The notes below the pieces were generated by a model. That model was given only the letters and a program-made list of their open reading frames with translations, was not told the DNA's origin and ran no database searches. This document shows positions 930 to 48,500 of a stretch of DNA of 64,000 nt, piece after piece. The DNA is from Patiria pectinifera (lineage: Eukaryota > Echinodermata > Asteroidea > Valvatida > Asterinidae), in NCBI GenBank assembly GCA_029964075.1, contig CM057141.1:13020001-13084000 (forward strand), read 5' to 3'. Every line of letters begins with the position of its first letter. The stretch's first letter is position 1. The position numbers and the translations under genes were made by a program.

Positions 930-1298
930 CAGGATCCTCAGGCTTTAGCCGTGGGTCACCACTTGGGTAGTCCTCGCTGAAGCAGACAACACCGACATCT
1001 TCTCTGTGTCGACATAAACCAGCAAATGGGTATGACAGTGGACATTTGATGATGCTCTCCTCTGTGCCGTTGCAGCCCAACTTGTACAAGAGGATCCCTC
1101 CCTCTCCCGACCCATACAGGCTAGCCGTTTCATAGCCATCCAAAGCCACCACGGCTGAGGCAAAGCCCAGCTGCCTACACACTACTTCTGCATCCTTCGC
1201 GTCCCAGTCATCATCACAGACAGTCCACCAAGCACCTTCGTACAGTAGTTCCAAGCGGCCCTGGTTGGGGTATGGTCCAACGAGGCGTGCTTCATAAT
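930..1298 (-). CDS. Receptor copy 1, exon 9: SRCR domain 8 and stalk
   Basis: 369-nt phase 1-1 exon with the canonical CDDDWDAKDAEVVCRQLGF block and six cysteines. It differs from copy 2 at DYE/DYK, DAK/DTK, ASLYG/ASKYG and SGD/SDD. About 4% of bases differ here, far more than in the SRCR5 exon. It ends CCTG|GTAAG and would join the transmembrane exon just beyond position 1. Confidence 0.92.
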
Positions 1299-4200
1299 CT
1301 GAGATAATAAAGTCCAAACTTACAGTATGTCTAACTAACAGTACGTCTAACTATTTTTGAAATAACTTCAAAATCAAGTAATTGTGCAGATATTCCTTAT
1401 CCTTGGCCTAAACCCCTATGAGCTTCATTTAATTTCCCTCACGCCTCACTGCACATTGGTCAATTGATCATCGCAACATTTTGCACACTGTGACCAAAGT
1501 CCTTGCCTTAATCAATTTCAGATGTGCTATGTAAACTCCTTTGTGTTGTGATTAAAAGGCTGATGTTGTTGGGAAATGGAATCATTTGCCCTTGAGCATT
1601 GAACTGAGGCCTTGCCATGATGACTGATAGCCAGACATGATTCCAATCCCCAACCACATCCCTCTTTCACAAAATGAAGGATTTCACACAATTTACATTA
1701 CACAGTACTGATATTAATTATGAACTGTTGTGATCAAATGACCATTGTTCAATTCAATTCAATATAACATTTATTTATATCCAACCATGAACAATGGTCA
1801 TTTCATATAGCATGTACATTAAAGGAAAATAAATATAAATTTTGCACTGGAAAAACAAATAAGTAAAATTGTAAATGACAAAGCAATTATTTCTAAGCCT
1901 AAGCTTGTCAATGGCAGTTGCTAGAAGCATACTGTGACCACTATAAAGCAATAAATGAAACACAAAAACGTTCATTAGTAAAACAACTGTTAACACATAA
2001 TACTCGGTCCATAACAGTGCAGTTAAACAGGTAATTAATATTCAAGAGTTAATTATCAAAAGTAAGAACGCAAAAAGACAAAGAGTAAATATTGAAGTGT
2101 ACAAATAAAATGTACAGGCTAAATGATATAATGAAAAAATAGGGAGGCATACTTCCAAAAGCAATGCTTGTATGGAAAGCCTTTGAGACACAAAACAAAC
2201 ATCAGACACTGGGAACCTTGGACAAGACAAAGACAAAACAGGACAAATAATATATGTACAAAAAAGTAAGTGACAATAGCATGAGGAGGAAACAGCACAC
2301 TACATGTTATGTACAGCAAGGCGTGAGGCAAATTAAGTGAATCTTGTAGGGATTTACACGTAAATCCAAGGAAAAGGAGCGTCTGCACTATTACACATTT
2401 TCAAGATTTACTTTGTGGTTTTGTGGTTCTTTCAAAAACACTTAGATGGACACTTTTTGGGGGACATTCATGTAATATGCAGCAGAGTTTGACATGACTG
2501 TGAGTAATATGTGACTTTCTCGGTCAAAATGAGCCACAAGCTGGCTACTGTTTCCATAAATGTTGCCATTTAAGTTACAGAAGACGAAAACACTTCGAAA
2601 TTGACATTCTTGTTTTCAAGTAATTTTTTTTATAAAGTGTAGAGATATACTGAACAAGCACAAGAGATTTTGCACCAAAAATGATCTAAAACAACGCATC
2701 AACTCTGAAGTAAAATTACAGATGTCGTATTAGGAAACTTATGGCACTTTCTTGGCCAACTCAAATAGTTTGGGGGTTTTCAAATCAATTCTGCCAAGCT
2801 TTGCTGCACGGTAAAGAGCACTTATTGCCAACAGATTGAGCACAAAGCCTGGCCATACGCTGCAACATGTACAAACAAGATGGACATCGACTTCCACACT
2901 GTAGTAAGACAAACACATGCAACTTCAATGCAAGATCTAGTAGACCATGACATTACACTAAAAGAACCAAACTGCTAAAAGATTTAAACCACAGCTTCAA
3001 TTCTTTCCAATTTGGGTAACGAAGAACATTTGGAAAAAAAATGCAACTTACAGTTGGTAAAAGGGAAATTCTCACACCGGACACTAGCCAGGGAACTGGA
3101 AGAGCAATCAACTGGATCCCCAAGCATCGCACGACATTCCGAGATACGTTCCTCTTTCCCCTGGCACATCAAGTCCTTCAGCCACACTGGCGTGCCTCCA
3201 GCCCGGGAAGCTGCAGAATTATAGAAATAGTCTTGGTTCCGGAAGCCCAAATGGTGGCAAACGACCTCAGCATCATTAGCATCCCAGTGATCAGCGCAGA
3301 TTGTGCCCCACTGGTCACTGTGGTAAATCTCGACGCGTCCCCGCGTGGCATCACGGCCACCACTGAGTCGCAGGTCTCCTTCAGTCGCTGCACAGATTTG
3401 TAAAAAACAGTCCTTGAAAAATTAGTAACAGGAAAAATGTACTTTTATATGGCTTAAGATATGCGATGCGACCTGACATGCAAACCATTCACTTACATAT
3501 CGTCGTGTCAGTGCAACAAGGTTGTATGTCCATTCTGCAACAAAGTCGTATACGCTCCGTGCAACAACGTCGTATCTCGATGTCCATTGACTTTGCGTGT
3601 ACATCCGGGTTATTTTAAGCCACATACGACCTTTTGACATTCTGAAACTCGCATTTTGCGTTCATGCCATTTTAGGAGATACGACCTTGTTGCACTGACA
3701 CGACGATATACAAGTCGTGCCATTTTGTTTTTGTGACACATAATAAGTACTTTCTAGGCTGGTTTGTATGTGAACACGTTCTTTATTTCAAGAACCACTA
3801 CATCAAATATTGTAAATGTTTTTTTGAAATGGTTCAGACACAAACAATACCGGGTAGGCTTAATGCTTGTTTTCTCAAAATCTTAACATTCACAATGCCA
3901 ACCGTTTTTACAGATGTCACGTACATGTTCAGGGTTAGGCACAAAAAGTATAACCTAAACAGTTCATACAGTGCTTTAGCACTGTTGCCTGTATTCGTAT
4001 TTGAGCACATTTTTGGTACTCGTACTCATGAAAATGTAACCGTACTCATACTCATGACAAATTACTCATGCTCTTGTAAATATTCTCCTGCAAGGATTTA
4101 AAATTGTTTAAGAGCTACATGTACATGCAGGAAAAGAACCAGTTTCCTACTGTTATGGAGGTTTCTGCAATTTATGTAATGTCTAATCTGACAGCCAAAA

Positions 4201-7200
4201 ACTCTCAAAAACGCGTGACACATCTAAGTTTACTCCTTCTAACTCATTTAAGTACTGGTAAATGTACTCGTAGTTGAGGATATTTATTGTTACTCGTACT
4301 CATACTCATGGAAAAACTGTTTTGTACTTGTACTCGTATTTTGTACTCATGACCAAGTACTCGTACTCACGACAAAGTATTCAAACTTGTACTCATTGGA
4401 ATGTACTCAATGTGGCTGCATCGGATTGGACGGATTATTGGCTTTCTATAAAAAGCACTTGGATATTATGTGTGGCAATTGGGGATGTACAGTACTCACC
4501 GTTATTCCAAATACCACACTGAACTGCAGCGGCCCCACCAATGCAAGGGCTTTGTCTGGACGTCCGATCGCACAACGAAAAAGCTATGGTCTCTCTTGAT
4601 ACACAGTTGATGACATCGTCCACCATCTCATAGGCTGGACTCTCACCAAACAGTCCCCCCGTGGTCTCCACAGAGGGGAAGGGTAAGCTTAGCTCTCGGC
4701 ACACGATCTGCTGCCCAATGAGTGTCAGATCATCGGCACATAAGGTCCTCCAGGCGTTCCGGTCGTAGATTTCAACACGTCCTTCGGTGCGCTCAGAGCC
4801 ATTGACAAGTCTAAGCTGGCCCTCCATAGCTTGTGGATGGGAAATATATGTAAAAAAAAAATACACATAAGGCCAAAAAAAAAAATAAGTCGGTCTCTGG
4901 TCAGCGCGCGCGTCGATTTTAATCATGCGCGTCAATCTTTTTTTTTCCAAAATGCTCCGCAGTAGCTCCAACAGCGCCCTCTATTGCCGCACCTCCTCAA
5001 TTGTTTTTACCAAAGAGCACCAAGGAATGAGAAATTGCACCAAGGCAAATGATCGAGAGTACCAAGGCAAATTATGGAGGACACCAATGTACATGAAGAC
5101 ACCAAAAAAGCAAAATAGTACCCCACCTTGTCTGTGCAATCCAAGCTTGAAAAAAAAAAAAAAAGCCGCGTCCCCGCGTCAATTCCGGAACTTTGGTCTG
5201 ACCAGAGACCAAATATTTTGGTTTTTTGGCCTAATGTACAAATATTGACTGCTTTGAGTGGTGTTCGCCTCGGGAAAAATAGATTGCTTCATGGATCACC
5301 TCGGGAGGCTAGTTTGACTACACCACGAGATAAAGCAGCCAATATATTCTGCTTGTCTTTAGGTGATGACTGATTAATTCAATATCAATTCATTTAAAAT
5401 GTACTTCAAATTGAATGCGAAAATAGGTGAAAGGTTACTTGCATTTTTCCCAAACTACTCCTTCACGAAATGTTTGAACCCAGCTCTGTAGCGCCAGCGC
5501 GCGCTCAGGACTAATATGCGCAACGAGCACACCCGTAATGCTTTTGCACACAATACCGGTTCTCATCGTATAGTACTTGGTTGCTATGGGTATAGTACTT
5601 TGGTTGCTATGGGTATAATACTTTTCATCATGCACAGCAAGATAGCAAGAATAGCAAATGCCATGTGACTCGCTCTCGGCCAATCAAGATACAGAATCTG
5701 TGGGTGAGGTTTTATAAATTGTAACGTATTGTGACTGGTACAAGAAAAATCTGTGAAATACATTGTACATCGTCGCTTTGCTCACAAAGTGACAAAAACC
5801 TTGAAAATCAATAAAATTTGATTTGAGTTTTACTAGCCTTTTCTTATTTTTGTCTGCATAGGAACAGTTTGACCAAGTTCCAAAGTGAAATCTTGTTTAC
5901 GTTTTTAATTATCGTAAATAAACATTTGACAAGAAGCTTAATATCCATGTTTTTTGTTTGAAGCGTAAAATGTTGTCACAAAGTGACAAAAAGTCATCTT
6001 GTTAGCAGGGCTGGTGGAATCAAACATTGGTCTACACGCAAGCAGGATGGGAAATGTACATGCGCGTGCGAACGATGTTTAAAGAGAACAGATGTAAGCG
6101 CTCAATTGTCGTTCATATGAATGATGCGTAGCCGTAAAAGCAACAAGTTTGTTGCGCCGACAAAAGGTACATGTATAGTGCTTATATTTTGATTAGAACT
6201 CTGATTTAAAGATCAAATACATTGTATGTGACTTGTTTCATTTGACACAAAAAGAGGATACTTGTAATCATGTACGTTTCTGATTCTTGTTCAATATTCC
6301 ACAAAGAACGATGACAACGTGGAACCCAACTACAAAGTACAATAAGATAAAGATTTATGGTAGCACTGTGTGACAAAAATCTCTGTATTGCATTGTACAT
6401 GTACAATGCAATACAGTACAATGAGTATCATGCAGTGCAGAAGCCCCCTTTACATCCTTTACCACGAAACGCACCTGAAATTAGGTAATTACATTTACAC
6501 CACTAAATATTGCATGGCATTTAAAGGGAATTAATATCATTTGCTTTTGCTGTAATTTTCAGAAATGGATGGAATTGGGGGGTTGGAAATATATAGCAAA
6601 TATAGTTACACTGACTTTTTTGAGGTTTTGGGTTCAAAAATGCTATAAAACCAAGAAAAACAATCATTTTCCTGTAGTCTGGTTCCCTGACTCCATATAA
6701 GAAGAAACAGAGCAGTTTACATACATTGGGGAATTGTAAGGTCAGGGAACCAGTCTAGCTGGCTTGTACCCGTTCATAGGTGTGTAATCGATTGTAAACA
6801 AGTGCGATGGTCAATTGGGGCCAGTATTTGAAAAAAAGCCAGTTTTTTCCAACGCTGGTCGGCCGACCAGCGTTGGAAATTGATAAAAAATACCACTTTT
6901 CTTGAAAATGACAGTATACCAGGTGTCATGATTTTACAGGATGCTTTACACTGTCATTCACTAACAGTCCAGCAAGGTATTTCAAAATGATTTGGTAGTT
7001 TTATTTTTTGATGTTTGCAAATGTTGTATTTTCCCTTTAAGTACAAGATTTGTGATAAAACATGTATTTTCCCTTTAAGTACAAGATTTGTGATAAAACA
7101 AACAATGCCAATACCGATTCCGTTGCTTCATCTGTACTTTGCCTCACCTGCTTCTGTGGCATCACAGACCACGTAGGCATCCATGTCATGAGTGCAGGTA

Positions 7201-10200
7201 TTTGTCAATTCACAATATCTTGGGATGATTGTGTCGAAAAATAATGGGCAGTTTGCAATTTCACCCGTCGCCCCACCATAAAGCCCTGTGCCAAACGATG
7301 TAGGAGGACGATACTTAAGCCCACGACAGATGGTGTTGGCTCTAGTTAGGTCCCAGACTTCTCCGCAGATTGTGGCCCACTTTCCCTCTTCGGCGATGTA
7401 GACCTCCACGCGACCTTGGTAAGGGTCCGGACCGCCAACAAGTCGCAATTCGCCATCATCTGGTTTAACAAATGATTTCAAGAGTAAATACAAACTAATG
7501 GTGCAATGTAGGTGGGTACCTCAGACTGGGACCATGTGTGCGGAAAGCATGCAAACTAAATTCAGGCCAACTTTACTCACTCTTTAGCAGACAAAATTAT
7601 CCAAAATTTTTATGACGTAAAGACAATTAGGTCCTCAGTATTTAACCAGCCATGTTTTTAAGTCTCAATTCAATTTTTAAAGAACTTTCTTCAATATTTT
7701 GCATCTAAAAGATGGAAGGCAAGTGATATCAATTTGAAGCCAAAGACTAGACTGGTACATGTCCAACTGTTTTTTTAAAAGATTGACCCTTCAGGAGTTT
7801 AGTGGCAGATTAAAGGGAATATACAACATTTGCAAACATCGAAAAATAAAACTACCAAGTTTTTACGAAATACCTTAGGCCAAACAAAAAAAATGGTGTG
7901 TTTACGGTAACGGCCTGAAAAAAATCCAGGTAGGTAGGTAGGTAGGGAAATAATTTTATTTTGTAATTTTTTTTTTTCATTTCAGTTCTGCATGCCCATG
8001 CGTGTTCTTTCGCAAAAAAATTGTATAAAACCACTATTCAAGCATTGAAGATATTCAATCGATACATTTCAATCCAAATTAATTTGTATCGTCCGCCAGG
8101 GTTCTCACCAGGATTTTTTCAAACATGTGGGGGAAGATTTGCTGTGATTCAACAACCCGAAAATGTTTGAACTTTAGAAGCTCTCTGGTGCATTTTAGAG
8201 CAAATCTGGGGGTCTTTATCTTAAGATTTGTCCTTGAAATTCAGAGGAGATCTTGTAGGTTATTAATATTTTTGTAATTAAAAAAAAAATCAAAATTGTT
8301 AACTAAAAAAAAATTAACATTTCACAACCTGTGTTTCATTGCTTCCTAACTAGAAAAGTATGCATTACATTTACATGTAAGTTTCAAATTAAGAAATTAA
8401 GGTGGAGAAAAAAAAACAACTTTTGCTTCCGATTTCATGCCTTTCAAAATAGCGTCAGTAGGTCGAAAAATTATTTCGCCAATTTTTTGGGGTGCTGATT
8501 AATGGAGCATCATTCGTACTAATCATAGAGCAAGGAATCATGTTTATTTTGTGCCTGGATTATTTTCATTTGCGCCACGAAAATTATCAAGACTGGCTAT
8601 CAGAAGTGATTAAAACTTGCCTCACCTAATTAAAAATATATTTGAGGTCGGTGATTCCACTTTATACTTAACATACATCACGGTCGCTGGCACCACCAAC
8701 ATTCCGCCTGGCGCGCCGAACATCGCGCCATGCTCACGGCCCACGTGGCCGAAAATCTTGCACTACTGCAGAAACACGCTACGATGTTTCCCCACAAGTT
8801 CGAGCTTTGCAATCTCATCATTTTAATGGAAAACGCATACACAGAAAGTAAAGATCACGTTCTGTGAATTAATTCGCAGAAATTCTCTTTCTCCAGCGAT
8901 GTTTGTTTGGTAATATTTTTACGATCCAACTTCGCCCACTACATCATCATGCTGTATATGATACGAAGTATGGACTGGAGAGCGGCAGTAGTCACTGGTT
9001 CCGGTCCTTCATCATATCATTGATTCCGTTAGCTGGCGAAGGGAACCAGTGTACCATGCTGTTAGCTAACTGCTGGTGGTCGACAGAACACGTCATTGTG
9101 TGCATTTTGATCACACATGCATCGGAAAAACAGGATTTTGGTCAAGATTTTGAAATAATGGCGTATGTAACGATCAAATTGTGCATTTTAATGACGTGTA
9201 ATTGTATTGTGCGTATCAGGGGCTAAAAAATGTGATCGGCATTTTTTTGTCGGCGTATCGGGCAGATACGCAGTACGCACGTTTGTATGTGGGGAGAACC
9301 ATGCCGTCCGTCGGCCAGCTAGGCGTACCCTGGCCCGATGCGTTTGTGCAAAAATAATCGTACTTCGTAGTTTGAGAGTTCAAGTTTTGAGATCGTCGCG
9401 ATTTTCGCATGTTTAACACAGGTATGTTTGTGTCAAATCATGGTCAGATTCAAGTGTGGAAAATGTTTTTTGTTCGTGGCAAATAATTAAAAGTACTTGA
9501 AATATTTGAAATTTGTCAATTATCAACCTTCAAAATGGCAATAAAAAGTTTGAGGTCGGCAATTTGGCCGAAAAAATTCCAGGTCGGTCGGGTTACCGTA
9601 AACACACCATTTTTTTTGTTCGGCCTTACAAGGATGTTGGTAAATGACAGTCTCAAGCATCTTGTAAAATTATGGCACCTGGTGTGAAGTCATTTTCAAG
9701 AAAATGGTATTTTTGTTTACATTTCCAACGGTGGTCGGCCGGCCAGCGTTGGAAAAACCTAACTACTTTTCAACTACTTCTCCAAATTAACCATTTTTTC
9801 AGTCCATATTTTGTTCGCTATTGGTTACATGTTTCATGAACGAGTGCAGGCCAGCTAGACTGGTTCCCGTGCCTTACAATTTTCCATCATCTATAAATTG
9901 ATCCATTTTATCTTTTGTGGAGTCAGGGAACCAGACTACTTAAACATTTTTGCTTTTCTTGGTTTTTCCAACCTTTTCGAACACAAAACTTCAAAAATGT
10001 CAGTGTAACAATATTTGATCTATATATACTAACCCCTCAATAGTTTATTTCTGAAAATTACATCAAAAACCAATGATGTACATTCCCTTTAAGGAAAGAT
10101 GTGTAGAAATAGAGACCGATACCAGCTTTTTCTTTTGACACAGTTGACTGATGCAGTACCAAAGGGGTGTGAGACTGCTTGTTTCATTTGCCAGTCTATT

Positions 10201-13200
10201 GTCTTGTATTGAATGAAGGGGTCAATATTTTTTCAAACAGTTGGACGTGTACCAGCTTCAAATTGAGATCACTTGGTTCACTCTCAGGTGCAAAATATTG
10301 AAGAAATATCTTCTTAGAAATTGAATTGAGCCTTCAAACTTGGCTGTTGAAATACTGAGGACCTTGCCTTTTCCTCCTGAACATTTTGGATAATTGTGTC
10401 GGCTAAAGAGTGAGTAAAGTTGGCCTGAATTTGTTATTCATGTTTATCTGCACTTATCAAGGTCCCAATTTGGTACAGTACCTGTACTGTGATTGCATGC
10501 TCACCTGGTGTGGGATTAGGCGTTGGTGTTGGTGATTCAACGTTCGAGCAGACGACTCCCAAATCTTGACCATAGCTACAGGTGGATGTTCCAAGTGTGT
10601 CATGGTAACAGTCAACAAGCCGCTCTTCGTTGCCATTACAGATCACCTCGGTTAAGACAATGTTCTCCATTTGCGGCCCGAAGGACTTCGTTGCCACCTC
10701 TGCATACAGGAACCCCAGTTGATGGCATGCTACCGATGCCTTGTTCTCGCCGTCAAAGCTCCGATGGCAAACGGTTCCCCACTCGCCTTGGTGAAGTATT
10801 TCCACTCGACCTTCTGCAGAGGTTTCGCCATTAGCCAGCCGCAAATCAGATTCCTGAGCTGCAGGTGACAGCAATAATTGGCATCAAAACAAAATCGACT
10901 TTAATTGATTTTAAGCTGCTGGTGCTCCAGTAATCACTTTTAAATAAATACTGCCCTTCAGAACTTCACCTTGCACGCCCTGGTAGACAACTTTGATTTG
11001 AACACATGCCAACTATTGAATTACAGACTTTTTAATCTTACTATTATCTACAGCAATGGGTGGTTTTCTCCTTCTATTCCTTGCGGAAATAAAACCAACT
11101 GTCGCTCTTCTATCTGTTGCCATTTTTCAACAACCATGTTCGGCATATTTTGCACACAAAAATCGAGAACCAAGCATGATGTTGGGTAAACCCGAATGTT
11201 CGGTAAAGCGGTGTTCGGTATAGCAAAGTTCCTCTGTACATACATGTACGTGACTTAAGATCAGTCAGAATGTTAAGAAGCTTTTGATCTGGGCATCAGA
11301 CTATCATAATTTGGCCTTTCCTGGTTTGCTTCCTAACTTGTTTCAGTTCAGTGGATCTGGGTCACATAAACTCACCTTCACTTGGTTCACCACACCGAAC
11401 TGCAGCATCACCACTAGCACACGTTGTCTGCCTTGCCATCTGAGGGCACGTTGCCAGACTGAACTCCTGCCCGGCACAGTCCAGCGAAACCTGCAGGATA
11501 TTGCCGGCCTTGCTGCTTCCAAACGTCCCACCTGGGACCACCTCTTGGGGAGGTGGCAAGCCCTGTTGCCGACAGGAAACCTGGGCCTCTGCCATCGTCC
11601 AGTCGTCTGAACACAGCCCCTTCCACACGTTGTTGTTGTAGATCTCCACACGACCTTCAGATTGTTGAGATCCACCAACAAACCGGATGTAGTCCTGTAT
11701 GCCTTTAACAATTAAAGGTCACATCTTTGTCAAATTGGAGTATTGGTTTTTGGGGCTTTTGAGGCAAACAAGGGCGTAATTAATTCGGGGAGGGGGGAGT
11801 GGAGAATAAACCCCACCCCCACACTTTTGACGGGGGGTGGGGGGTCATTGGATCATCCCAAAGTGTACCGGTATGTAGTGGGAAATAAAGAAAATGATGA
11901 TTTAAAGGTCATTTTCTTACTTGCAAACAGCGAAAAGGTATTAAATTGCACTGAAAAATGGAGAACAAACAGTAGAGCAGCTTTCATAAACCATTTTGAT
12001 GTAAGGTTCAGTGTAAGCTCTGAAGTTTGCATTGATGTTTATTGGCATCATAAACACGGCCCCCTTCGAAATTCATAGCCAGGCAATTGTAAGATTTAGA
12101 ATGTACGCCACTGGAAAACATCACAGCAGAATTCAACCAAACAAAATAGTTATTGGTAGTGTTATTTAAGATTGGAACGAGCCAGCCCCACCCGGCAAGC
12201 TCGTTGGCCGATTGGGAAGATGTCTGCTTTTGTAAGCAGGCAATGGTGAGTAAGCTTGTGAGGTTTTTCTAACAAGCCCTCGGAGAACGTGGAGTATACG
12301 TTGTTACTGAAATCACACGTACGTTAGTGATGGCAAAACCAAGAATTCAAAATGCATCCTTCATTTAATCAATTCATTTATTTACAGTACTGATCAGGTA
12401 ACTGAGGATCAATTCACACACCGGATGTGTAATGAGTGAAATGCAATATGAAACATTGGTTTTCATATGCGTTTCACTTCTGCTAGGTTGGTGAATGACA
12501 AAAATGTATATGTATTCCCACTTTCTGCATACATGCACTCACATGGATGCCCTTTGTGTGCCACTACACATGTTTGCAACTTTTAACTTGAGAAATTTGT
12601 TATATCGTGTGCATGGATACTGTCGTTTCATTGGTCGAGAAAGGCCACGTGGCCAGTCTGTAAAAATGCATCACACTGCGTTCATTGCGCGCATTGCAAA
12701 ATGTAGGTTTCTGGTGCACCCTAGTCAAACTTGTGATGACAAAGATAAATTTGCAAGAGCTCTCTTCCACTGAGCTTTGCTACTCAGCCATCAATTCGCC
12801 ACTGGCCATAGTTGTTTCAACACTTCTTATTTCGCCATTTTAACACTGCGAGATGACCTTACAAGAAATGGCTTACGTACCTGGCTCTGTACCACTGCAG
12901 ATCACGTCTACTGCCATGTCGTGAGAGCATTCACCGACTGCATCACTTGCATTGACTATTTGACAGCTGTCCCAATTCGAATCAACTGAACCACGATAAT
13001 TGAATGCTGCAGCCGAGCAATTGGCTGTCTGTCCAGCCCCGGCACCGTAGCGGCCTGTCCCAGCCAATGTAGCGGGTCGGAAGCCCAGCTTCTCACAAAC
13101 AAACGAAGCTCTGGTGAAGTCCCAGTCCACGTTGCAGATAGGCATCCAGGCTAGGGCTTTGCCGCGGAATACCTCCACACGGCCTTGGTAGGGATCAGGT

Positions 13201-16200
13201 CCACCGACCAGTCGGAATTTGCCATTGATTGCTTCAACATCTACCAAAAACAACAGAGGGATAGGATTTAATTTAATACTACCTGCATACATGCAACACA
13301 TTAAGAAAAGCTTTCGTTATGGTAGTCAGGTATCAAATGGAGCCGAAATGAAAGATTGGTTGTGGACGTAACATTGACACCGTGTCAACCCCAAATGTCA
13401 CACTTCCATCGAGTGATTTTGACACCATTACGTCCACATTAAGGTATTGTTTCTGCTATATTTGAACCCTGACCATACCGAAACAAAAGCTTTTCATTGT
13501 GCATAAGGTGTCCAGCAATAAATATGCCATGTCAGTTTGGGTAATATTTTACATATATGTGTAAAAAACGGCAAAAAAAAAGAATATTTGGATGTAACAT
13601 TGACAAGGTATGTCTGAATTAATACATTTTTGCTCATATTTTTTGTTAAAGTACATTCACATGATTTCAAACTTTCGCTAAGTATTTAAACACCCTAACA
13701 CAAATATTATGTTGAGCAATTGTTTACAACGCATTGATACTTTTACTAACCAAATATTTGGATGTAAAATGCACTGTGTCCCAACCCGCAGTGTTGTAGT
13801 CGAGTACTTTTTTCCGAGTACCGAGTACTGCCGAGTACTTAGGTTGCCGAGTACGAGTACTTGTACCTCCGAGTACAAGAACGGGTCTCCAAGTACGAGT
13901 ACTTGTACTTCCGAGTACAAGTACGAGTACGCGTAAGTTTCCGAGTACGAGTACGAGTACGAGTACGAGTACTCGCATTTCCGAAAACGGCCATAAGGCA
14001 GTTGGTTTATTGTGCGTAATCAGACCGATATACAGACCCACTCACGGCTAGCTGTTAAATGTGTTTGTCCGGACTTGCACAGAGGAAAATCAGGAAATAT
14101 TGATTTCTCCACAAGCCAATCAACCATTTAAACTGAAAGTACCGATAAAATAAGGCCATGGTAAGTGAAGCTATAACATTTCCCCCCGAGTACTGCTATT
14201 CGAGTATGAGTACTTTAATGATCGAGTACAATTTTGACATGTTGAGTACGAGTACTTTGCTGCCCGAGTACGAGTACCGCCACTTCGAGTACAAGTACTT
14301 GGACATTTGAGTCCGAGTACGAGTACTCCAAAAAAAGTACTCGAGTAGTACTCGAGTACTACAAAACTGCCAACCTGGTGGAATGACCCAGTTCTCAATC
14401 TTGTCACCTAGCGCTAAATAAATAAAGTCTTGTGCCTTTTTCCAATGATGCACTACGGGTATGGAAGTAGGATATGTGCTAGCGTGACCAACAGCATCTT
14501 TACTGTATATGAATCCATTGCAGTTGCACTGTCGATACAGGTACACCAAATAGTACAAAAGCAAACAATTCAAGCCTCAAATGAACTAGATCTTAATTAA
14601 CCACCTCCTCCACTCAATTCAGATACGCAGAATTTTTTGTGAACTTACCAGGAGCATAAGTTATTGGTACCTCTGTAGTAAGAACATTGCTGCAGACGAG
14701 CCCAACGTCGTAACCATGCCCACAATTGGACTTGCCCAGCTTATCATGATAACAGTCCAGTATGCTGGCCTCATTGCCGTTACAATTCAAGTCATCAATG
14801 ACAATCGCTCCTGAACCAGGCCCAAAGGACTTGACTTCCACTGCGTAGGGAAACCCAAGCTGACGGCACACCACAGACGCTTCCTCTATCTTAAAAGAAT
14901 CTTCACCGCAGACTGTTCCCCATTCGCCCTGGAAGAAGATTTCCAGTCGTCCTTCCATGCTGGTCGAGCCATTTGTCAACCGCAGATCATGTTCTTGGGC
15001 TGTGCAAAGTATAAATGAAGAAAGTTTGTTCTGCCTCACAATTCATCACATCAATGATAAGTTGACCACAAGGCATCAAGATTCAACTCTTGCTTTTGTC
15101 ATTCTTGATCATGCCCTATGACCTGACTACATGTCATGACATGACTACAGTGATGGACCCGTGAGGCGTTTTGGCAAAATGAGATGAAACTGGGCACATG
15201 CCCTAGTGGGGGAAATTGTAAAAAAAAAAAAACACGGAATGGGGGTAATTCGTGTCAGTGCAACAAAGTCGTAACTCCATTCTGCAACAGTTTTATCTCG
15301 CACGAATACGCTCCGTGCAACAAGGTCGTATCTCGACGTCCATTGACTTTGTGTGTACATCCGGGTTATTTTAAATGAGATACGACCTTTTGACATTCTG
15401 AAATTTGCGTTTCGCGTATGGCTCATTTCAGGAGATACCGTACGACCTTGTTGCACGGACATGACAAATTTTTGTTGCAGTTTTAAGGTTTATTGACACT
15501 TATAACCTCTCATATGTCTAAAACACATATTTAATAAAGAAACAGTATAAAAATTGTGGAATAAAAGATTTTTAAGGAAAAACAATTGGCATATTTAATT
15601 TTTACGACTTCAAAATTCAAAACTTTAAAGGCCTTTTTCTCAGTATTTTACTTTCAAGATGACATTGGAAAGTCAATTTTATTTTCATTTCCGGGTCTTC
15701 TCTATAGTCTGACGTGCCATTGGTCCGACGTGCCATTGGTCCGGCGTGCCATTGGTCCGGCGTGCCATTGGTCCGCAACCCATTGGTCCGCAACCCATTG
15801 GTCCGCAACCCATTGGTCCGCAACCCATTGGTCCGCAGCCCATTGGTCCGCAGCCCATTGGTCCGCGGCCCATTGGTCCGCAACCCATTGGTCCGCAACC
15901 CATTGGTCCGCAACCCATTGGTCCGCAACCCATTGGTCCGCAACCCATTGGTCCGCAACCCATTGGTCCGCAACCCATTGGTCCGCAACCCATTGGTCCG
16001 CAACCCATTGGTCCGCAACCCATTGGTCTATGTTAGTCCCACTGGTTCGACGTTCCATTGGTCCGACGTTCCATTATTCTATAGATACATCCAATTGGTC
16101 TATACGTCCCATTGGTCCGACGTCCCTTTGGTTCTACGGCTCATTCAGGGTTAGGGTTAGGGTTAGGGCACCAGTACTACCAGGCCAAATGTCTTCAAGA

Positions 16201-36599: not shown

Positions 36600-39500
36600 C
36601 TAAAAACAATGATAAAAAAACGGACATATGACGGTGGGGCATCCTAAAAACAATGATAAAAAAACGGACAAGATTACTCCACTGCAGAAGGGTGTTAACT
36701 GATGAATATGTTTTTCTAAGGGCCAATTTTACGAAACCCTAAGACAAGTCTTAGGAAGGGTAACTCGTCTTAATTCGCAAATCGTCCTAGGATCGATTTC
36801 ACCAAACTGAAGATGCGTTCAACACGTCCAAACTTCCTTAGCATTCATTTCTTTTCAACGACTGTTTCGTCAAGCGGTAAAAAAACAACTTGAAACGGCC
36901 ATCAAATTGGAAGTTTTGAAGCCTCTTGCTTAAGATGAGTTTAGTGAAATCGGTCTTAGGATGCGTCGCAGCTAAGATCGATCTTAGAGCGGGGCTATAA
37001 AGGTGATTCGCATGATGAGACCAGTTCCGTGAAATTAGCTCCAAGTACACGTAAAGCGGGCACACACACACACTGAGTTACATAGGTTGGTACTCTGATA
37101 TGTGTAATGATTGAGTCATTTAGAGTGCCGTGGTCTTGTTGTCTGAGGCAACAAATTCAAGATCTGTTGATAATTCTGCAGAATGTAAAGGTTTTCAGTC
37201 CAGCCTGGGGTTTGCGTGTGTCCTTGGGCAAGACACTTTATGACTAATTGCTTCTCCCCACCCAGGAGTGAATGGGCATTATGCGAGGACAGAGAGGGTC
37301 TCTGTGATTGATTTTAACTGCTTTGAGCAAAATGGCAGCGTCAAGCTCCAGGGAGCCGAGTTGGTCTTTGGAATGTTTCATGGGCCCAATATAAGTAGGG
37401 GTAATAATGATGTAACTTTTCATAAGATGGAATTTGCGTCCGGGTGATGTAAATTCAATACTGGGTTTTGCCCTTCACTGACATATTTTATAAACATTTC
37501 ATAATTGGTGTTGTCCAAAGTGATTGTGAGAAAAAAATCACTCGGGTGGGACTCGAACCTCTGACCTCCTGCTTACTATTGCTGACGTCTTACCACTTGA
37601 CCACCAAGCTTGTCTGGGTCTGCTGACTGGTTCTAATCTGATGTAGCAGCAGGTACCGCAACCAAACTATTCATAAGATGGTCTTGGGTTCGAGTCCCAC
37701 CCGAGTGATTTTTTTTCTTCTCACAATCACTCGTGACAACACTGAGTATATACAGTGTCTATAAAATATGTCGATGAAAGACAAAACCCAATATTGAATG
37801 ATACAACTTGTAGAAAATTATGCTTTTGACATATCCATGGTTAGAACAGGTTTTCTATTCAGGAGGAGACTTTTACTTTCATAATGCGTCCAGGGGCCGA
37901 TTTCATAGAGCTGCTTAAACACAAAATTTGCTTAAGCACAAAAAAACTTTGCTTTATATAATCAGGTTACCCACCATAACTCCATGCGATTGTTATGCCA
38001 AGTAAACAACAGCTAAACGTCAGTCACAAGCAATGTACTTCACATGATGTTTTGGCCGGTATCCTCATTATATTAAGCAAGGTTTTTTGTGCTTAAGCAA
38101 AGTTTGTGCTTAAGCAGCTCTCTGAAATTGGCCCCAGGTCACGTGGATTTTTTTTGGAAAAAGATATTTCTGTTTCATTGTGATAGTACAAAAATATTTA
38201 TGGTCAGGAACACTTGATTATAGGGAGTTATTTTTCATGGCCTATACATTTACCTCATTTTGGCCAACACCTGTGAGGGCTACATCTCCGGTGGGCGATC
38301 CCGGTGCTGGGCTGGTAAATGCATCTGCACCCTCTGGTGATCTTTTTTTATTGGCTTTCAAGATAGCTCCCAAGATTGTGAAAAACACTGAGGCACCCAA
38401 CAGGCATCCAAGGACAATATTACGGATCTGGTCGCTTGATAAACCTGTAGGAAGAGACACGAACCAAAGCGACGTGACAGGGCTATAATAGTGACACTGC
38501 TCTATGGGACTTGTCACCGTCTCAGAAATGGTAGCTCTTATCATTATTGACCTGCTCAATGCAACAAGGTTCAATAGCTGTGTAGATCTGTTTGCCTTTC
38601 TGCATTGAGCAGTTAAGGTTAACCCTAACCCGCTAGCCCTTTTTGCTGGGAACCATCCTCAATCCTCCAAAATCCTCCAAAAATGTTAGTTTTTGAAAAT
38701 GTTCAGAAAATTTTCAGACAGTCCAGTGCCTCAAAATGCATTCATCCTCAATCCTTCAAAATCCTCCTGATGAAAAAATGTTCAAATGAAGGGTACCCAG
38801 CCCCTCAATCCTTCAAAATCGTCAGACAGTCCTGCCTCAAAATTCCATTCAGCCTCAATCCTCCAAAATCCTTTTCTGAAAAAATACCATTCAGCCTTAA
38901 TCCTCCAAATTCTTTTCAGAAAAAATACCATTCAGCCTCAATCCTCCAAAATCCTTTTCAGAAAAAATACCACTCAGCCTCAATCCTCCAAAATCCTCCA
39001 AAACCACAATGAGGATTTTGGAGGACTGAGGAAGGTTAGAGTACCACCCAACACTGGGTTAAACCCAACCCTACCCAACTCAACTCAACCCAAACCAACA
39101 CAACCCAACCTATCCAGTCCAATCAAGCTCAGCCAAGCCAAACCAACCCAACCCTACCAAACCCAACCCAACCAGCCCAAAGCCCAACCTAACCAAGCCA
39201 AGCCAAACCAAACATGGCCCAACCCAACCCAACCCAACCCAATTCAACCCAGCCCAAAGAAACCCAACCCAAATCCAACCAATGAACCAGACCTTTCTAA
39301 TCCCAACCTAACCTGACCCAACCCAACCCAACCAATCACCGACAAATCATGAATACAACTTGTAGACTGGGTGTGTGAATCTTACCAGGATCCTCAGGCT
39401 TTAGCCGTGGGTCATCACTTGGGTAGTCCTCGCTGAAGCAGACAACACCGACATCTTCTCTGTGTCGACATAAACCAGCAAATGGGTATGAGAGTGGACA

Positions 39501-42500
39501 CTTGATGATGCTCTCCTCTGTGCCGTTGCAGCCCAACTTGTACAAGAGGATCCCTCCCTCTCCCGATCCATACTTACTAGCCGTTTCATAGCCATCCAAA
39601 GCCACCACGGCCGAGGCAAAGCCAAGCTGCCTACACACTACTTCTGCATCCTTCGTGTCCCAGTCATCATCGCAGACAGTCCACCAAGCACCTTCATACA
39701 GTAGTTCCAAGCGACCCTGGTTAGGGTATGGTCCAACGAGGCGTGCTTTATAATCTGAGATAATAAAGACCAAACTTACAGTATGTCACAAAATAATTGT
39801 CCGTCTATTTATATTTTTGAAATAACTTCAAAATCAAGTAATTGTGCAGATATTCCTTATCCTTGGCCTAAACCCCTATGAGCTTCATTTAATTTCCCTC
39901 ACGTCTCAGTGCACATTGGTCAATTGATCATCGCAACATTTTGCACACTGTGACCAAAGTCCTTGCCTTAATCAATTTCAGATGTGCTATGTAAACTCCT
40001 TTGTGTTGTGAATAAAAGGTTGTTAGGAAATGGAATCATTTGCCCTTGAGCATTAAATTGAGGTCTTGCCATGGTGACTGATAGCCAGGCATGATTCCAA
40101 TCCCCAACCAAATCCCTCTTTCACAAAATGAAGGATTTCACACAATTTACATTTCACATTACTGATATTAATTATGAACTGTTGTGATCAAATGACCATT
40201 GTTCAATTCAATTCAATATAACATTTATTTATATCCAACCATGAACAAAATACAATTCATATAGCATGTACATTAAAGGAAAATAAATATAAATTTTGCA
40301 TTGGAAAAACAAATAGGCCTAAGTAAAATTGTAAATGACAAAGCAATTAATTCAAGCCATAATAAGCCTAAGCTTGTCAATGGCAGGTGCTAGAAGCATT
40401 CTGTGACCACTATAAAGCAATAAATGAAACAAAAAACATTCATTAGTACAACAATTGTTAACACATAATACTCGGTCCATAACAGTGCAGTTAAACAGGT
40501 AATTAATATTCAAGAGTTAATTATCAAAAGTAAGAACGCAAAAAGACAAAGAGTAAATATAAGTGTACAAATAAAATGTACAGGCTAAATGATATAATGA
40601 AAAAATAGAGAGGATATAGGCATACTTCCAAAAGCAATGCTTGTATGGAAAGCCTTTGAGACACAAAACAAACATCAGACACTGGGGACCTTGGACAAGA
40701 CAAAGACAAAACAGGACAAATAATATATGTACAAAGAAGTAAGTGACAATAGCATGAGGAGGAAACAGCACACTACATGTTATGTACAGCAAGGCGGGAG
40801 GGAAATTAAGTGAATCTCGTAGGGATTTACACGTAAATCCAAGGAAAAGGAGCGTCTGCACTATTACACATTTTCAAGATTTACTTTGTGCTTTTGTGGT
40901 TCTTTCAAAAACACTTAGATGGACACTTTTTGGGGGACATTCATGTAATATGCAGCAGAGTTTGACATGACTGTGAGTAATATGTGACTTTCTCGGTCAA
41001 AATGAGCCACAAGCTGGCTACTGTTTCCATAAATTTTGCCATTTAAGTTACAGAAGACGAAAACACTTCGAAATTTACATTCTTGTTTTCAAGTAAATTT
41101 TTTTAAGCGTAGAGAAATATTGAACAAGCACAAGTGATTTTGCACCAAAAATTATCTAAAACAACGTACATGTGTACATGTATCAATACTGAAGTAAAAT
41201 TACAGATGTCGTATTAAGAAACTTATGGCACTTTCTTGGCCAACTCAAATAGTTTGGGGGTTTTCAAATCAATTCTGCCAAGCTTTGCTGCACAGTAAAG
41301 AGCACTTATTGCCAATAGATTGAGCACAAAGCCTGGCCATACGCTGCAACATGTACAAACAAGATGGACATCGACTTCCACACTGTAGTAAGACAAACAC
41401 ACGCAACTTCAATGCAAGATCTAGTAGACCATGACATTACACTAAAAGAACCAAACTGCTAAAAGATTTAAACCACAGCTTCAGTTCTTTCCAATTTGGG
41501 TAACGAAGAACATTTGAAAAAAAAATGCAACTTACAGTTGGTAAAAGGGGAATTCTCACACCAGACATTAGCCAGGGAACTCAAAGTGCAATCAACTGGT
41601 TCCCCAAGCATCGCACGACACTCCGAGATACGTTCCTCTTTCCCCTGGCACATCAAGTCCTTCAGCCACACTGGTGAGCCTCCAGCCCGGGAAGCTGCAG
41701 AATTATAGAAATAATATTGGTTCCGGAAGCCCAAATGGTGGCAAACGACCTCAGCATCATTAGCATCCCAGTGATCAGCGCAGATTGTGCCCCACTGGTC
41801 ACTGTGGTAAATCTCGACGCGTCCCCGCGTGGCATCACGGCCACCACTGAGTCGCAGGTCTCCTTCAGTCGCTGCACAGATTTGTAAAAAACATAGTCCT
41901 TGAAAAATTAGTAACAGGAAAACTGTACTTTTATATGGCTTAAAGGTATACCGGTAGTCCATCATTTGCAGCCATCCGAAAAGTAACTGGCGTAATTATT
42001 GTTGAAAAACAAACTTGGTTGAAAGATAGTAAAGGGACTAAACTCCCTGTGAAATTATTCTTTCTGGCAAGCTGTCATTTTGAAGTTATCAACGAAAGAA
42101 GGCATTTCCAACGGTGACTCTTAAGAAGCACCGTAGGAAAATTTAAATTAGTAGTTCGTTTTGTTATTCAGCGCAGCGCGCACAAGTATTGGAACGACGC
42201 ACACGCGCGCGCGGTTGTTATAATTCGTTGGATCAGTGCGCGACGTCGCGTATAGCTGCAATTCAAAACAATTCAAAAGATGATTCAGTAACTTTGGATT
42301 TGAAATTGAGATCTTAGAATGCTGTTTTTCTCGGAATGTACAGCTGAAGCTTAGCTGAAACTTCATCAGGTTAGTTGCTTAGTATCCTTCATTAGATTTT
42401 GAACCCTTTTGTTGCTTCAAACGAACAAAATGCACAAATTACAAATGATGGACTGTAGCTTTAAGATATGCGATGCGACCTGACACGCAAACCATTCACT

Positions 42501-45500
42501 TACATATCGTCGTGTCAGTGCAACAAGGTCGTATGTCCATTCTGCAACAAAGTCGTATCTCGCGCGTATACGCTCCGTGCAACAACATCGTATCTCGACG
42601 TCCATTGACTTTGCGTGTACATCCGGGTTATTTTAAGCCACATACGACCTTTTGACATTCTGAAACTCGCATTTTGCGTTTAGGCCATTTTAGGAGATAC
42701 AACCTTGTTGCACTGACACGACGATATATACAAGTCGTGCCATTTTGTTTTTGTGACACATAATAAGTACTTTCTAGGCTGGTTTGTATGTGAACACGTT
42801 CTTTATTTCAAGAACCACTACATCAAATATTGTAAATGTTTTTTTGAAATGGTTCAGACACAAACAATACCGGGTAGGCTTAATGCTTGTTTTCTCAAAA
42901 TCTTAACATTCACAATGCCAACCGTTTTTACAGATGTCACGTACATGTTCAGGGTTAGGCACAAAAAGTATAACCTAAACAGTTCATACAGTGCTTTAGC
43001 ACTGTTGCCTGTATTCGTATTTGAGCACATTTTTGGTACTCGTACTCATGAAAATGTAACCGTACTCATACTCATGACAAATTACTCATGCTCTTGTAAA
43101 TATTCTCCTGCAAGGATTTAAAATTGTTTAAGAGCTACATGCAGGAAAAGAACCAGTTTCCTACTGTTATGGAGGTTTCTGCAATTTATGTAATGTCTAA
43201 TCTGACAGCCAAAAACTCTCAAAAACGCGTGACACATCCAAGTTTGCTCCTACTGACTCATTCTATACTGGTAAATGTACTCGTAGTTGAGGATATTTAT
43301 TGCTACTCGTACTCATACTCATGGAAAAACTGTCTTGTACTTGTACTCGTATTTTGTACTCATGACCAAGTACTCGTACTCACGACAAAGTACTCAAACT
43401 TGTACTCATGGGAATGTACTCAATGTGGCTGCATCGGAAAGGATGGATTATTGGCTTTCTATAAAAAGCACTTGGATATTATGTGTGGCAATTGGGGATA
43501 TATACAGTACTCACCGTTATTCCAAATACCACACTGAACTGCAGCGGCCCCACCAATGCAAGGGCTTTGTCTGGACGTCCGATCGCACAACGAAATAGCT
43601 ATGGTCTCTCTTGATACACAGTTGATGACATCGTCCACCATCTCATAGGCTGGACTCTCACCAAACAGTCCCCCCGTGGTCTCCACAGAGGGGAAGGGTA
43701 AGCTTAGCTGGCGGCACACGATCTGCTGCCCAATGAGTGTCAGATCATCGGCACATAAGGTCCTCCAGGCGTTCCGGTCGTAGATTTCAACACGTCCTTC
43801 GGTGCGCTCAGAGCCATTGACAAGTCTAAGCTGGCCCTCCATAGCTTGTGGATGGGAAATATATGTAAAAAAAAAATACACATAAGGCCAAAAAAAAAAA
43901 TAAGTCGGTCTCTGGTCAGCGCGCGCGTCGATTTTAATCATGCGCGTCAATCTTTTTTTTTCCAAAATGCTCCGCAGTAGCTCCAACAGCGCCCTCTATT
44001 GCCGCACCTCCTCAATTGTTTTTACCAAAGAGCACCAAGGAATGAGAAATTGCACCAAGGCAAATGATCGAGAGTACCAAGGCAAATTATGGAGGACACC
44101 AATGTACATGAAGACACCAAAAAAGCAAAATAGTACCCCACCTTGTCTGTGCAATCCAAGCTTGAAAAAAAAAAAAAAAGCCGCGTCCCCGCGTCAATTC
44201 CGGAACTTTGGTCTGACCAGAGACCAAATATTTTGGTTTTTTGGCCTAATGTACAAATATTGACTGCTTTGAGTGGTGTTCGCCTCGGGAAAAATAGATT
44301 GCTTCATGGATCACCTCGGGAGGCTAGTTTGACTACACCACGAGATAAAGCAGCCAATATATTCTGCTTGTCTTTAGGTGATGACTGATTAATTCAATAT
44401 CAATTCATTTAAAATGTACTTCAAATTGAATGCGAAAATAGGTGAAAGGTTACTTGCATTTTTCCCAAACTACTCCTTCACGAAATGTTTGAACCCAGCT
44501 CTGTAGCGCCAGCGCGCGCTCAGGACTAATATGCGCAACGAGCACACCCGTAATGCTTTTGCACACAATACCGGTTCTCATCGTATAGTACTTGGTTGCT
44601 ATGGGTATAGTACTTTGGTTGCTATGGGTATAATACTTTTCATCATGCACAGCAAGATAGCAAGAATAGCAAATGCCATGTGACTCGCTCTCGGCCAATC
44701 AAGATACAGAATCTGTGGGTGAGGTTTTATAAATTGTAACGTATTGTGACTGGTACAAGAAAAATCTGTGAAATACATTGTACATCGTCGCTTTGCTCAC
44801 AAAGTGACAAAAACCTTGAAAATCAATAAAATTTGATTTGAGTTTTACTAGCCTTTTCTTATTTTTGTCTGCATAGGAACAGTTTGACCAAGTTCCAAAG
44901 TGAAATCTTGTTTACGTTTTTAATTATCGTAAATAAACATTTGACAAGAAGCTTAATATCCATGTTTTTTGTTTGAAGCGTAAAATGTTGTCACAAAGTG
45001 ACAAAAAGTCATCTTGTTAGCAGGGCTGGTGGAATCAAACATTGGTCTACACGCAAGCAGGATGGGAAATGTACATGCGCGTGCGAACGATGTTTAAAGA
45101 GAACAGATGTAAGCGCTCAATTGTCGTTCATATGAATGATGCGTAGCTGTAAAAGCAACAAGTTTGTTGCGCCGACAAAAGGTACATGTATAGTGCTTAT
45201 ATTTTGATTAGAACTCTGATTTAAAGATCAAATACATTGTATGTGACTTGTTTCATTTGACACAAAAAGAGGATACTTGTAATCATGTACGTTTCTGATT
45301 CTTGTTCAATATTCCACAAAGAACGATGACAACGTGGAACCCAACTACAAAGTACAATAAGATAAAGATTTATGGTAGCACTGTGTGACAAAAATCTCTG
45401 TATTGCATTGTACATGTACAATGCAATACAGTACAATGAGTATCATGCAGTGCAGAAGCCCCCTTTACATCCTTTACCACGAAACGCACCTGAAATTAGG

Positions 45501-48500
45501 TAATTACATTTACACCACTAAATATTGCATGGCATTTAAAGGGAATTAATATCATTTGCTTTTGCTGTAATTTTCAGAAATGGATGGAATTGGGGGGTTG
45601 GAAATATATAGCAAATATAGTTACACTGACTTTTTTGAGGTTTTGGGTTCAAAAATGCTATAAAAACCAAGAAAAACAATCATTTTCCTGTAGTCTGGTT
45701 CCCTGACTCCATATAAGAAGAAACAGAGCAGTTTACATACATTGGGGAATTGTAAGGTCAGGGAACCAGTCTAGCTGGCTTGTACCCGTTCATAGGTGTG
45801 TAATCGATTGTAAACAAGTGCGATGGTCAATTGGGGCCAGTATTTGAAAAAAAGCCAGTTTTTTCCAACGCTGGTCGGCCGACCAGCGTTGGAAATTGAT
45901 AAAAAATACCACTTTTCTTGAAAATGACAGTATACCAGGTGTCATGATTTTACAGGATGCTTTACACTGTCATTCACTAACAGTCCAGCAAGGTATTTCA
46001 AAATGATTTGGTAGTTTTATTTTTTGATGTTTGCAAATGTTGTATTTTCCCTTTAAGTACAAGATTTGTGATAAAACATGTATTTTCCCTTTAAGTACAA
46101 GATTTGTGATAAAACAAACAATGCCAATACCGATTCCGTTGCTTCATCTGTACTTTGCCTCACCTGCTTCTGTGGCATCACAGACCACGTAGGCATCCAT
46201 GTCATGAGTGCAGGTATTTGTCAATTCACAATATCTTGGGATGATTGTGTCGAAAAATAATGGGCAGTTTGCAATTTCACCCGTCGCCCCACCATAAAGC
46301 CCTGTGCCAAACGATGTAGGAGGACGATACTTAAGCCCACGACAGATGGTGTTGGCTCTAGTTAGGTCCCAGACTTCTCCGCAGATTGTGGCCCACTTTC
46401 CCTCTTCGGCGATGTAGACCTCCACGCGACCTTGGTAAGGGTCCGGACCGCCAACAAGTCGCAATTCGCCATCATCTGGTTTAACAAATGATTTCAAGAG
46501 TAAATACAAACTAATGGTGCAATGTAGGTGGGTACCTCAGACTGGGACCATGTGTGCGGAAAGCATGCAAACTAAATTCAGGCCAACTTTACTCACTCTT
46601 TAGCAGACAAAATTATCCAAAATTTTTATGACGTAAAGACAATTAGGTCCTCAGTATTTAACCAGCCATGTTTTTAAGTCTCAATTCAATTTTTAAAGAA
46701 CTTTCTTCAATATTTTGCATCTAAAAGATGGAAGGCAAGTGATATCAATTTGAAGCCAAAGACTAGACTGGTACATGTCCAACTGTTTTTTTAAAAGATT
46801 GACCCTTCAGGAGTTTAGTGGCAGATTAAAGGGAATATACAACATTTGCAAACATCGAAAAATAAAACTACCAAGTTTTTACGAAATACCTTAGGCCAAA
46901 CAAAAAAAATGGTGTGTTTACGGTAACGGCCTGAAAAAAATCCAGGTAGGTAGGTAGGTAGGGAAATAATTTTATTTTGTAATTTTTTTTTTTCATTTCA
47001 GTTCTGCATGCCCATGCGTGTTCTTTCGCAAAAAAATTGTATAAAACCACTATTCAAGCATTGAAGATATTCAATCGATACATTTCAATCCAAATTAATT
47101 TGTATCGTCCGCCAGGGTTCTCACCAGGATTTTTTCAAACATGTGGGGGAAGATTTGCTGTGATTCAACAACCCGAAAATGTTTGAACTTTAGAAGCTCT
47201 CTGGTGCATTTTAGAGCAAATCTGGGGGTCTTTATCTTAAGATTTGTCCTTGAAATTCAGAGGAGATCTTGTAGGTTATTAATATTTTTGTAATTAAAAA
47301 AAAAATCAAAATTGTTAACTAAAAAAAAATTAACATTTCACAACCTGTGTTTCATTGCTTCCTAACTAGAAAAGTATGCATTACATTTACATGTAAGTTT
47401 CAAATTAAGAAATTAAGGTGGAGAAAAAAAAACAACTTTTGCTTCCGATTTCATGCCTTTCAAAATAGCGTCAGTAGGTCGAAAAATTATTTCGCCAATT
47501 TTTTGGGGTGCTGATTAATGGAGCATCATTCGTACTAATCATAGAGCAAGGAATCATGTTTATTTTGTGCCTGGATTATTTTCATTTGCGCCACGAAAAT
47601 TATCAAGACTGGCTATCAGAAGTGATTAAAACTTGCCTCACCTAATTAAAAATATATTTGAGGTCGGTGATTCCACTTTATACTTAACATACATCACGGT
47701 CGCTGGCACCACCAACATTCCGCCTGGCGCGCCGAACATCGCGCCATGCTCACGGCCCACGTGGCCGAAAATCTTGCACTACTGCAGAAACACGCTACGA
47801 TGTTTCCCCACAAGTTCGAGCTTTGCAATCTCATCATTTTAATGGAAAACGCATACACAGAAAGTAAAGATCACGTTCTGTGAATTAATTCGCAGAAATT
47901 CTCTTTCTCCAGCGATGTTTGTTTGGTAATATTTTTACGATCCAACTTCGGCCCACTACATCATCATGCTGTATATGATACGAAGTATGGACTGGAGAGC
48001 GGCAGTAGTCACTGGTTCCGGTCCTTCATCATATCATTGATTCCGTTAGCTGGCGAAGGGAACCAGTGTACCATGCTGTTAGCTAACTGCTGGTGGTCGA
48101 CAGAACACGTCATTGTGTGCATTTTGATCACACATGCATCGGAAAAACAGGATTTTGGTCAAGATTTTGAAATAATGGCGTATGTAACGATCAAATTGTG
48201 CATTTTAATGACGTGTAATTGTATTGTGCGTATCAGGGGCTAAAAAATGTGATCGGCATTTTTTTGTCGGCGTATCGGGCAGATACGCAGTACGCACGTT
48301 TGTATGTGGGGAGAACCATGCCGTCCGTCGGCCAGCTAGGCGTACCCTGGCCCGATGCGTTTGTGCAAAAATAATCGTACTTCGTAGTTTGAGAGTTCAA
48401 GTTTTGAGATCGTCGCGATTTTCGCATGTTTAACACAGGTATGTTTGTGTCAAATCATGGTCAGATTCAAGTGTGGAAAATGTTTTTTGTTCGTGGCAAA

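Follow-up and report, generated by a model that had tools for sequence, protein, structure and literature searches.

Six substitutions within 17 bp separate the SRCR2 exons of two tandem Patiria pectinifera genes, possibly through a short ectopic conversion tract

The exons of SRCR domain 2 (SRCR2) of two tandem genes of Patiria pectinifera differ at seven sites, six of which fall inside 17 bp, and our analysis confirms that this patch is a real and statistically strong cluster. We consider it to be one clustered event in the SRCR2 of gene 2, most likely a short ectopic conversion tract from an SRCR2-type donor absent from the assembly, a reading to which we give about an even chance. Both genes have eight SRCR domains, are encoded on the minus strand and follow each other at a 39-kb interval within the window, which is the whole stretch of 64,000 nucleotides that was analysed and corresponds to C13:13020001-13084000. 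The patch represents a clean worked case of clustered substitution mimicking positive selection in an immune-type gene, and it is set in a trio of eight-SRCR genes in which exon-scale exchange is directly visible. Table 1 compiles the coordinates.

Table 1. Positions of the genes, domains, exons and patch; coordinates refer to the window, except those of gene 3, and domains are listed from 5' to 3'.
Feature	Position	Strand	Basis or remark
Gene 1, eight SRCR domains, each one open frame	982..14973	-	domain calls
Gene 1 SRCR1-8	14689-14973, 12894-13208, 11392-11679, 10545-10832, 7164-7439, 4543-4806, 3074-3361, 982-1272	-	
Gene 2, eight SRCR domains	39438..54272	-	domain calls
Gene 2 SRCR1-8	53988-54272, 52168-52482, 50664-50951, 49562-49852, 46180-46455, 43558-43821, 41558-41845, 39438-39728	-	
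SRCR domain 2 exon, gene 1	12880..13242	-	ends judged by eye from sequence
SRCR domain 2 exon, gene 2	52154..52516	-	translation, domain calls
Low-divergence tract, copies 1 and 2	12704..14411	.	nine substitutions, six of them inside the patch; one 19-bp indel near 14352
Patch, copy-1 version (RGKALA), six differing sites	13149..13165	-	alignment, translation
Patch, copy-2 version (LYNARA), probably derived	52423..52439	-	alignment, translation; gene 3 agrees with copy 1
Gene 3, third eight-SRCR gene (L035, L036)	C13:12970222-12980714	opposite to genes 1 and 2	first SRCR at C13:12970222

The alignment places the mismatches between copy 1 (gene 1) and copy 2 (gene 2) at 13027, 13149, 13153, 13158, 13162, 13163 and 13165, and the translation agrees with it. 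The original prediction had made the same count of sites and had described the change from RGKAL to LYNAR after GRVEVF, which is seen in the translation; its span, 13147-13163, is two bases off, the true one being 13149-13165. On the coding strand, copy 1 reads TTC CGC GGC AAA GCC CTA GCC TGG and copy 2 reads TTC CTC TAC AAT GCC CGA GCT TGG, or F-RGKALA-W and F-LYNARA-W at the protein level, with five base changes in four amino-acid-altering codons and one synonymous change. Six substitutions within 17 bp were obtained in none of 2,000,000 random placements of nine substitutions in the 1708-bp low-divergence tract, and in 13 of 2,000,000 placements of seven substitutions in the 363-bp exon. 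These figures reject independent, evenly spread point changes and are compatible with one clustered event. The 17-mer keeps 11 of its 17 letters as well as the reading frame (P ~6e-4 under an unrelated or random filler), which argues against random filler, yet point changes would leave the same match.

The surrounding introns had been described as almost unchanged, and this holds for 12704-14411 only, with the indel as an interruption, since the flanks (10932-12703 and 14412-15700) diverge by ~2.9% between the copies. At the divergence of the flanks, ~49 substitutions would be expected in the tract, and because only nine were found, we conclude that it was homogenised recently, with the patch as the exception inside it. 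Elsewhere, genes 1 and 2 mostly show a divergence of 1-5% per 400-bp bin. Positions 4801-10800 of the window differ from their copy by two substitutions in 6 kb, while the neighbouring stretches are ~2-3% divergent, which suggests a long tract of recent conversion. Six differences are likewise packed into each of two further 17-bp windows of the duplication, with starts at 655 (655-667) and 1335 (1335-1351), which sit in more divergent 400-bp bins (3.2% and 4.3%, respectively). Genes 1 and 2 therefore present the mosaic identity between paralogues by which interlocus gene conversion is recognised, and the exons of gene 3 present it as well.

In the whole-genome DNA search of the 613-Mb assembly, the SRCR2 exon was found at three places. 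The SRCR2 of gene 3, which lies 62 kb away from its gene 1 counterpart, carries the copy-1 patch with every letter identical; it differs from both copies at eight further sites of the 315-nt SRCR2 domain, and the start of its exon also differs from that of genes 1 and 2. Site 13027 of gene 3 matches copy 2, and with gene 3 as the comparison copy 2 has zero private changes in the domain outside the patch. Because gene 3 has the copy-1 patch and copy 2 lacks any other private change, LYNAR is probably the derived state in copy 2. This polarity is not certain, as the SRCR2 exon of gene 3 seems itself to have taken part in exchange with genes 1 and 2.

The comparison of gene 3 with genes 1 and 2 separates its domains into those that differ by 3-7% (SRCR2, 3 and 8) and those that differ by 27-34% (SRCR4-7). 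Against gene 1, the nucleotide differences are 9/315, 13/288 and 14/291 for SRCR2, SRCR3 and SRCR8, and 97/288, 79/276, 74/258 and 82/285 for SRCR4-7, with SRCR1 at an intermediate value (43/276); synonymous codon changes number three in SRCR2 and 26 in SRCR4. When 3.4-kb stretches around SRCR2 were compared, the matches of genes 1 and 2 to gene 3 consisted of two exons and one 63-bp piece only, and in the introns beside SRCR2 gene 3 is not near-identical to the other two genes. Since SRCR2, 3 and 8 are near-identical while SRCR4-7 and the introns beside SRCR2 have diverged, the alignments point to exon-sized transfers among genes 1, 2 and 3.

From this pattern, we infer the origin of the patch by conversion, its direction and its donor. 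An ectopic gene conversion tract of at least 17 bp would have hit the SRCR2 exon of gene 2 and swapped the ancestral RGKALA for LYNARA, the donor being a paralogue or allele of SRCR2 type that the assembly lacks or has since lost. The patch resembles a conversion tract, not a proven one, and a tract of 17 bp is short, which counts against conversion. The donor searches covered the whole assembly, with places counted irrespective of their location in SRCR exons. The derived 24-mer, with up to three mismatches, found itself only (one place, with one for the reversed control), and the derived 18-mer, with up to two mismatches, found nine other places (ten with the patch; ten for the control), the patch alone having fewer than two mismatches. 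A gapped pattern with up to two mismatches found 31 other places, none of them exact (32 with the patch; 23 for the control). Among the 207 other sampled SRCR domains, the longest run in common with the derived 18-mer was 7 nt. A donor block of the kind expected for an interlocus gene conversion tract was therefore not found in the assembly, and absence from one assembly is not the same as absence from the species. Of the three ideas suggested from the first look, the short conversion tract is in general the best supported, by the exon-scale exchange in the trio and by the single tight block, and the assembly search for its donor speaks against it.

Within the locus, the best match, a segment of the same exon reading RYGAGA (13 of 18 letters), was rejected as a template: on visual comparison, five of the six changed sites correspond and the letters between them do not, a misfit to a contiguous copy. 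The longest exact runs of local templates were 6 nt, in both direct and inverted orientation (the latter within 150 nt), and none was convincing.

Gene conversion has been suggested for the SRCR and cytoplasmic domains of CD163 (excerpts of PMC2906472). As in our trio, ectopic (interlocus) conversion in SRCR families such as CD163/WC1 homogenises SRCR domains among paralogues; in contrast, the patch spans 17 bp, makes the copies differ instead of agree, and has no donor among the places found in the assembly. Multinucleotide mutation and short-range template switching, as presented in excerpts of PMC7954356, likewise leave dense substitutions in a near-identical alignment, but template switching differs from our case, where the inverted runs provide no reverse-orientation local template. 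Among the titles and abstracts listed by paper searches on SRCR gene conversion and on echinoderm SRCR genes, none concerns a comparable patch. The present genome, with its very large SRCR set and with each domain in one open frame, is similar to the sea urchin, for which one exon per SRCR domain is described (excerpts of PMC10855680).

For the behaviour of the loop across the SRCR family, 208 of the 214 domains found from 1208 first-look candidates entered the sample; this sample is non-random, as it was chosen from top-scoring lists with preference for arrays likely to contain close copies. Close pairs, defined as at most 12% divergent over more than 240 aligned nt, were picked greedily and without overlap. 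Among the 76 independent pairs, the loop from VEV to W has 30 substitutions in 381 codons (0.079), compared with 696 in 6967 (0.100) elsewhere, and we reject a family-wide hot spot or hypervariable selected loop. Without the focal pair, the values for the 75 remaining pairs are 24/374 (0.064) and 695/6869 (0.101); none of these pairs has more than three loop substitutions, so that the focal pair is the lone outlier in the loop. The ratio of non-synonymous to synonymous codons in the 75 pairs is 14:8 in the loop and 298:308 elsewhere, which is not significant (Fisher P 0.20), and the higher non-synonymous share of the loop is not significant with the focal pair included either (Fisher P 0.11). 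This ratio leans toward the selection idea of the earlier reader and goes no further; the diversifying selection proposed for a surface loop finds no recurrent hot spot to support it.

Amino-acid change in the close pairs is densest at alignment columns 2-8, just past the domain start, and 110-117, near the C-terminal end; the patch, at columns 13-19, is not among the densest windows. A seven-residue loop occurs in seven of the 208 sampled domains, namely the three SRCR2 and three SRCR5 domains of genes 1-3 and one other. Clusters in 17 bp with a nominal P of at most 0.01 (58 tests, uncorrected) were found in five of the 58 pairs with at least three changes, the focal pair included. In the four others the cluster lies outside the VEV-W loop, elsewhere in the domain; in two of them both variants recur in a further sampled copy, which is not so for the other two, and conversion is weakly suggested as their cause. 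A regular array of near-identical SRCR exons, with a spacing of ~3.1 kb, is located at C10:8487276-8515383 (L054-L062, L074-L082).

The identity of the domains as SRCR is supported by phmmer matches to CD163, SCARA5, DMBT1 and MARCO (among 26 sequences) and by the predicted SRCR2 model (mean pLDDT of 77, from an alignment of 16 sequences that all come from the window), which matches SRCR structures, the best being 7bzz (E 1.6e-08). In this model, the patch residues 21-25 form a turn between strands 14-21 and 26-31. The VEVLXXXXW peptide motif of DMBT1/SALSA is reportedly the subject, by its title, of a 2004 work by Bikker. The patch occupies the x positions of this motif between VEV and W, but the VEV-to-W stretch is two residues longer here. 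SRCR2 has CNVDWD where the consensus of the sampled family is CDDGWD, and it lacks the aspartate pair of the SALSA-type cation sites 2 and 3 (D1019/D1020); these two aspartates of SALSA SRCR8 probably correspond to N and V in SRCR2. We take D1019/D1020 to follow the Cys directly, which agrees with the numbering of the SALSA paper. Excerpts of PMC7043408 state that mutating the two cation-site aspartates of SALSA SRCR8 abolished binding, and describe the GRVEVxxxxxW peptide as buried in the SALSA structures and without a validated binding role, thereby disputing that of the DMBT1 motif. Because SRCR2 lacks both aspartates and the motif is called buried, a ligand role of the patch turn is unproven; selection for ligand specificity, as originally proposed, keeps in its favour the turn between two strands of the model.

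The main rival to the conversion tract is an untemplated multinucleotide mutation, in which several bases of gene 2 were altered together by an error-prone polymerase or by complex repair. It would account for the searches, which found neither an assembly template above control nor a convincing local one, and eukaryotic genomes are said to be pervaded by mutation clusters, which come partly from error-prone polymerases (excerpts of PMC7954356). We nevertheless regard it as unlikely: six spaced changes in 17 bp that leave an open frame and no indel seem, in our judgement, many for such an event, and the base changes are of mixed type. More doubtful is the possibility that RGKAL and LYNAR are versions that diverged long ago, either with flanks that were homogenised later while the patch was skipped (by mosaic conversion or by selection against its loss), or with RGKAL transferred from gene 3 to gene 1 in a piece of at most ~138 bp. 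The divergence of the patch (6/17, 35%) is close to that between the old SRCR4-7 domains of genes 3 and 1 (29-34%), and genes 1 and 3 differ at domain codons 2 and 48 and are identical in between. Against this, two events would be needed around or past a 17-bp patch, and outside it the domains of genes 1 and 2 are each other's closest relatives, with one difference between them and eight or nine to gene 3.

That diversifying selection acted on a ligand-contacting loop and fixed several changes there independently appears to us very unlikely. Of the six changes, five are non-synonymous, the model shows the patch as a hairpin turn, and the non-synonymous share of the loop is somewhat, not significantly, higher in the other pairs; however, five of six is expected by chance with P ~0.38, the loop of the other close pairs is the less changed part per codon, and the cation-site residues of SRCR2 and the buried motif of PMC7043408 also weigh against a ligand contact. 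The patch is known here from assembled sequence, in which one copy could carry an assembly or consensus error, but the six substitutions keep the frame and bring neither an indel nor a stop, and this, with the independent presence of the copy-1 version in gene 3, makes an error extremely improbable. Another reading, for which we see only a slim chance, would make the hairpin turn an exchangeable cassette, with RGKALA and LYNARA as long-lived alternatives moved between SRCR2 exons by micro-conversion and kept distinct by selection while the rest of the exon was homogenised; if true, it would constitute a germline path to receptor diversity in an invertebrate.

The window also contains, at 27924-30635, a tandem array of ~218-bp units that are ~85-90% alike.
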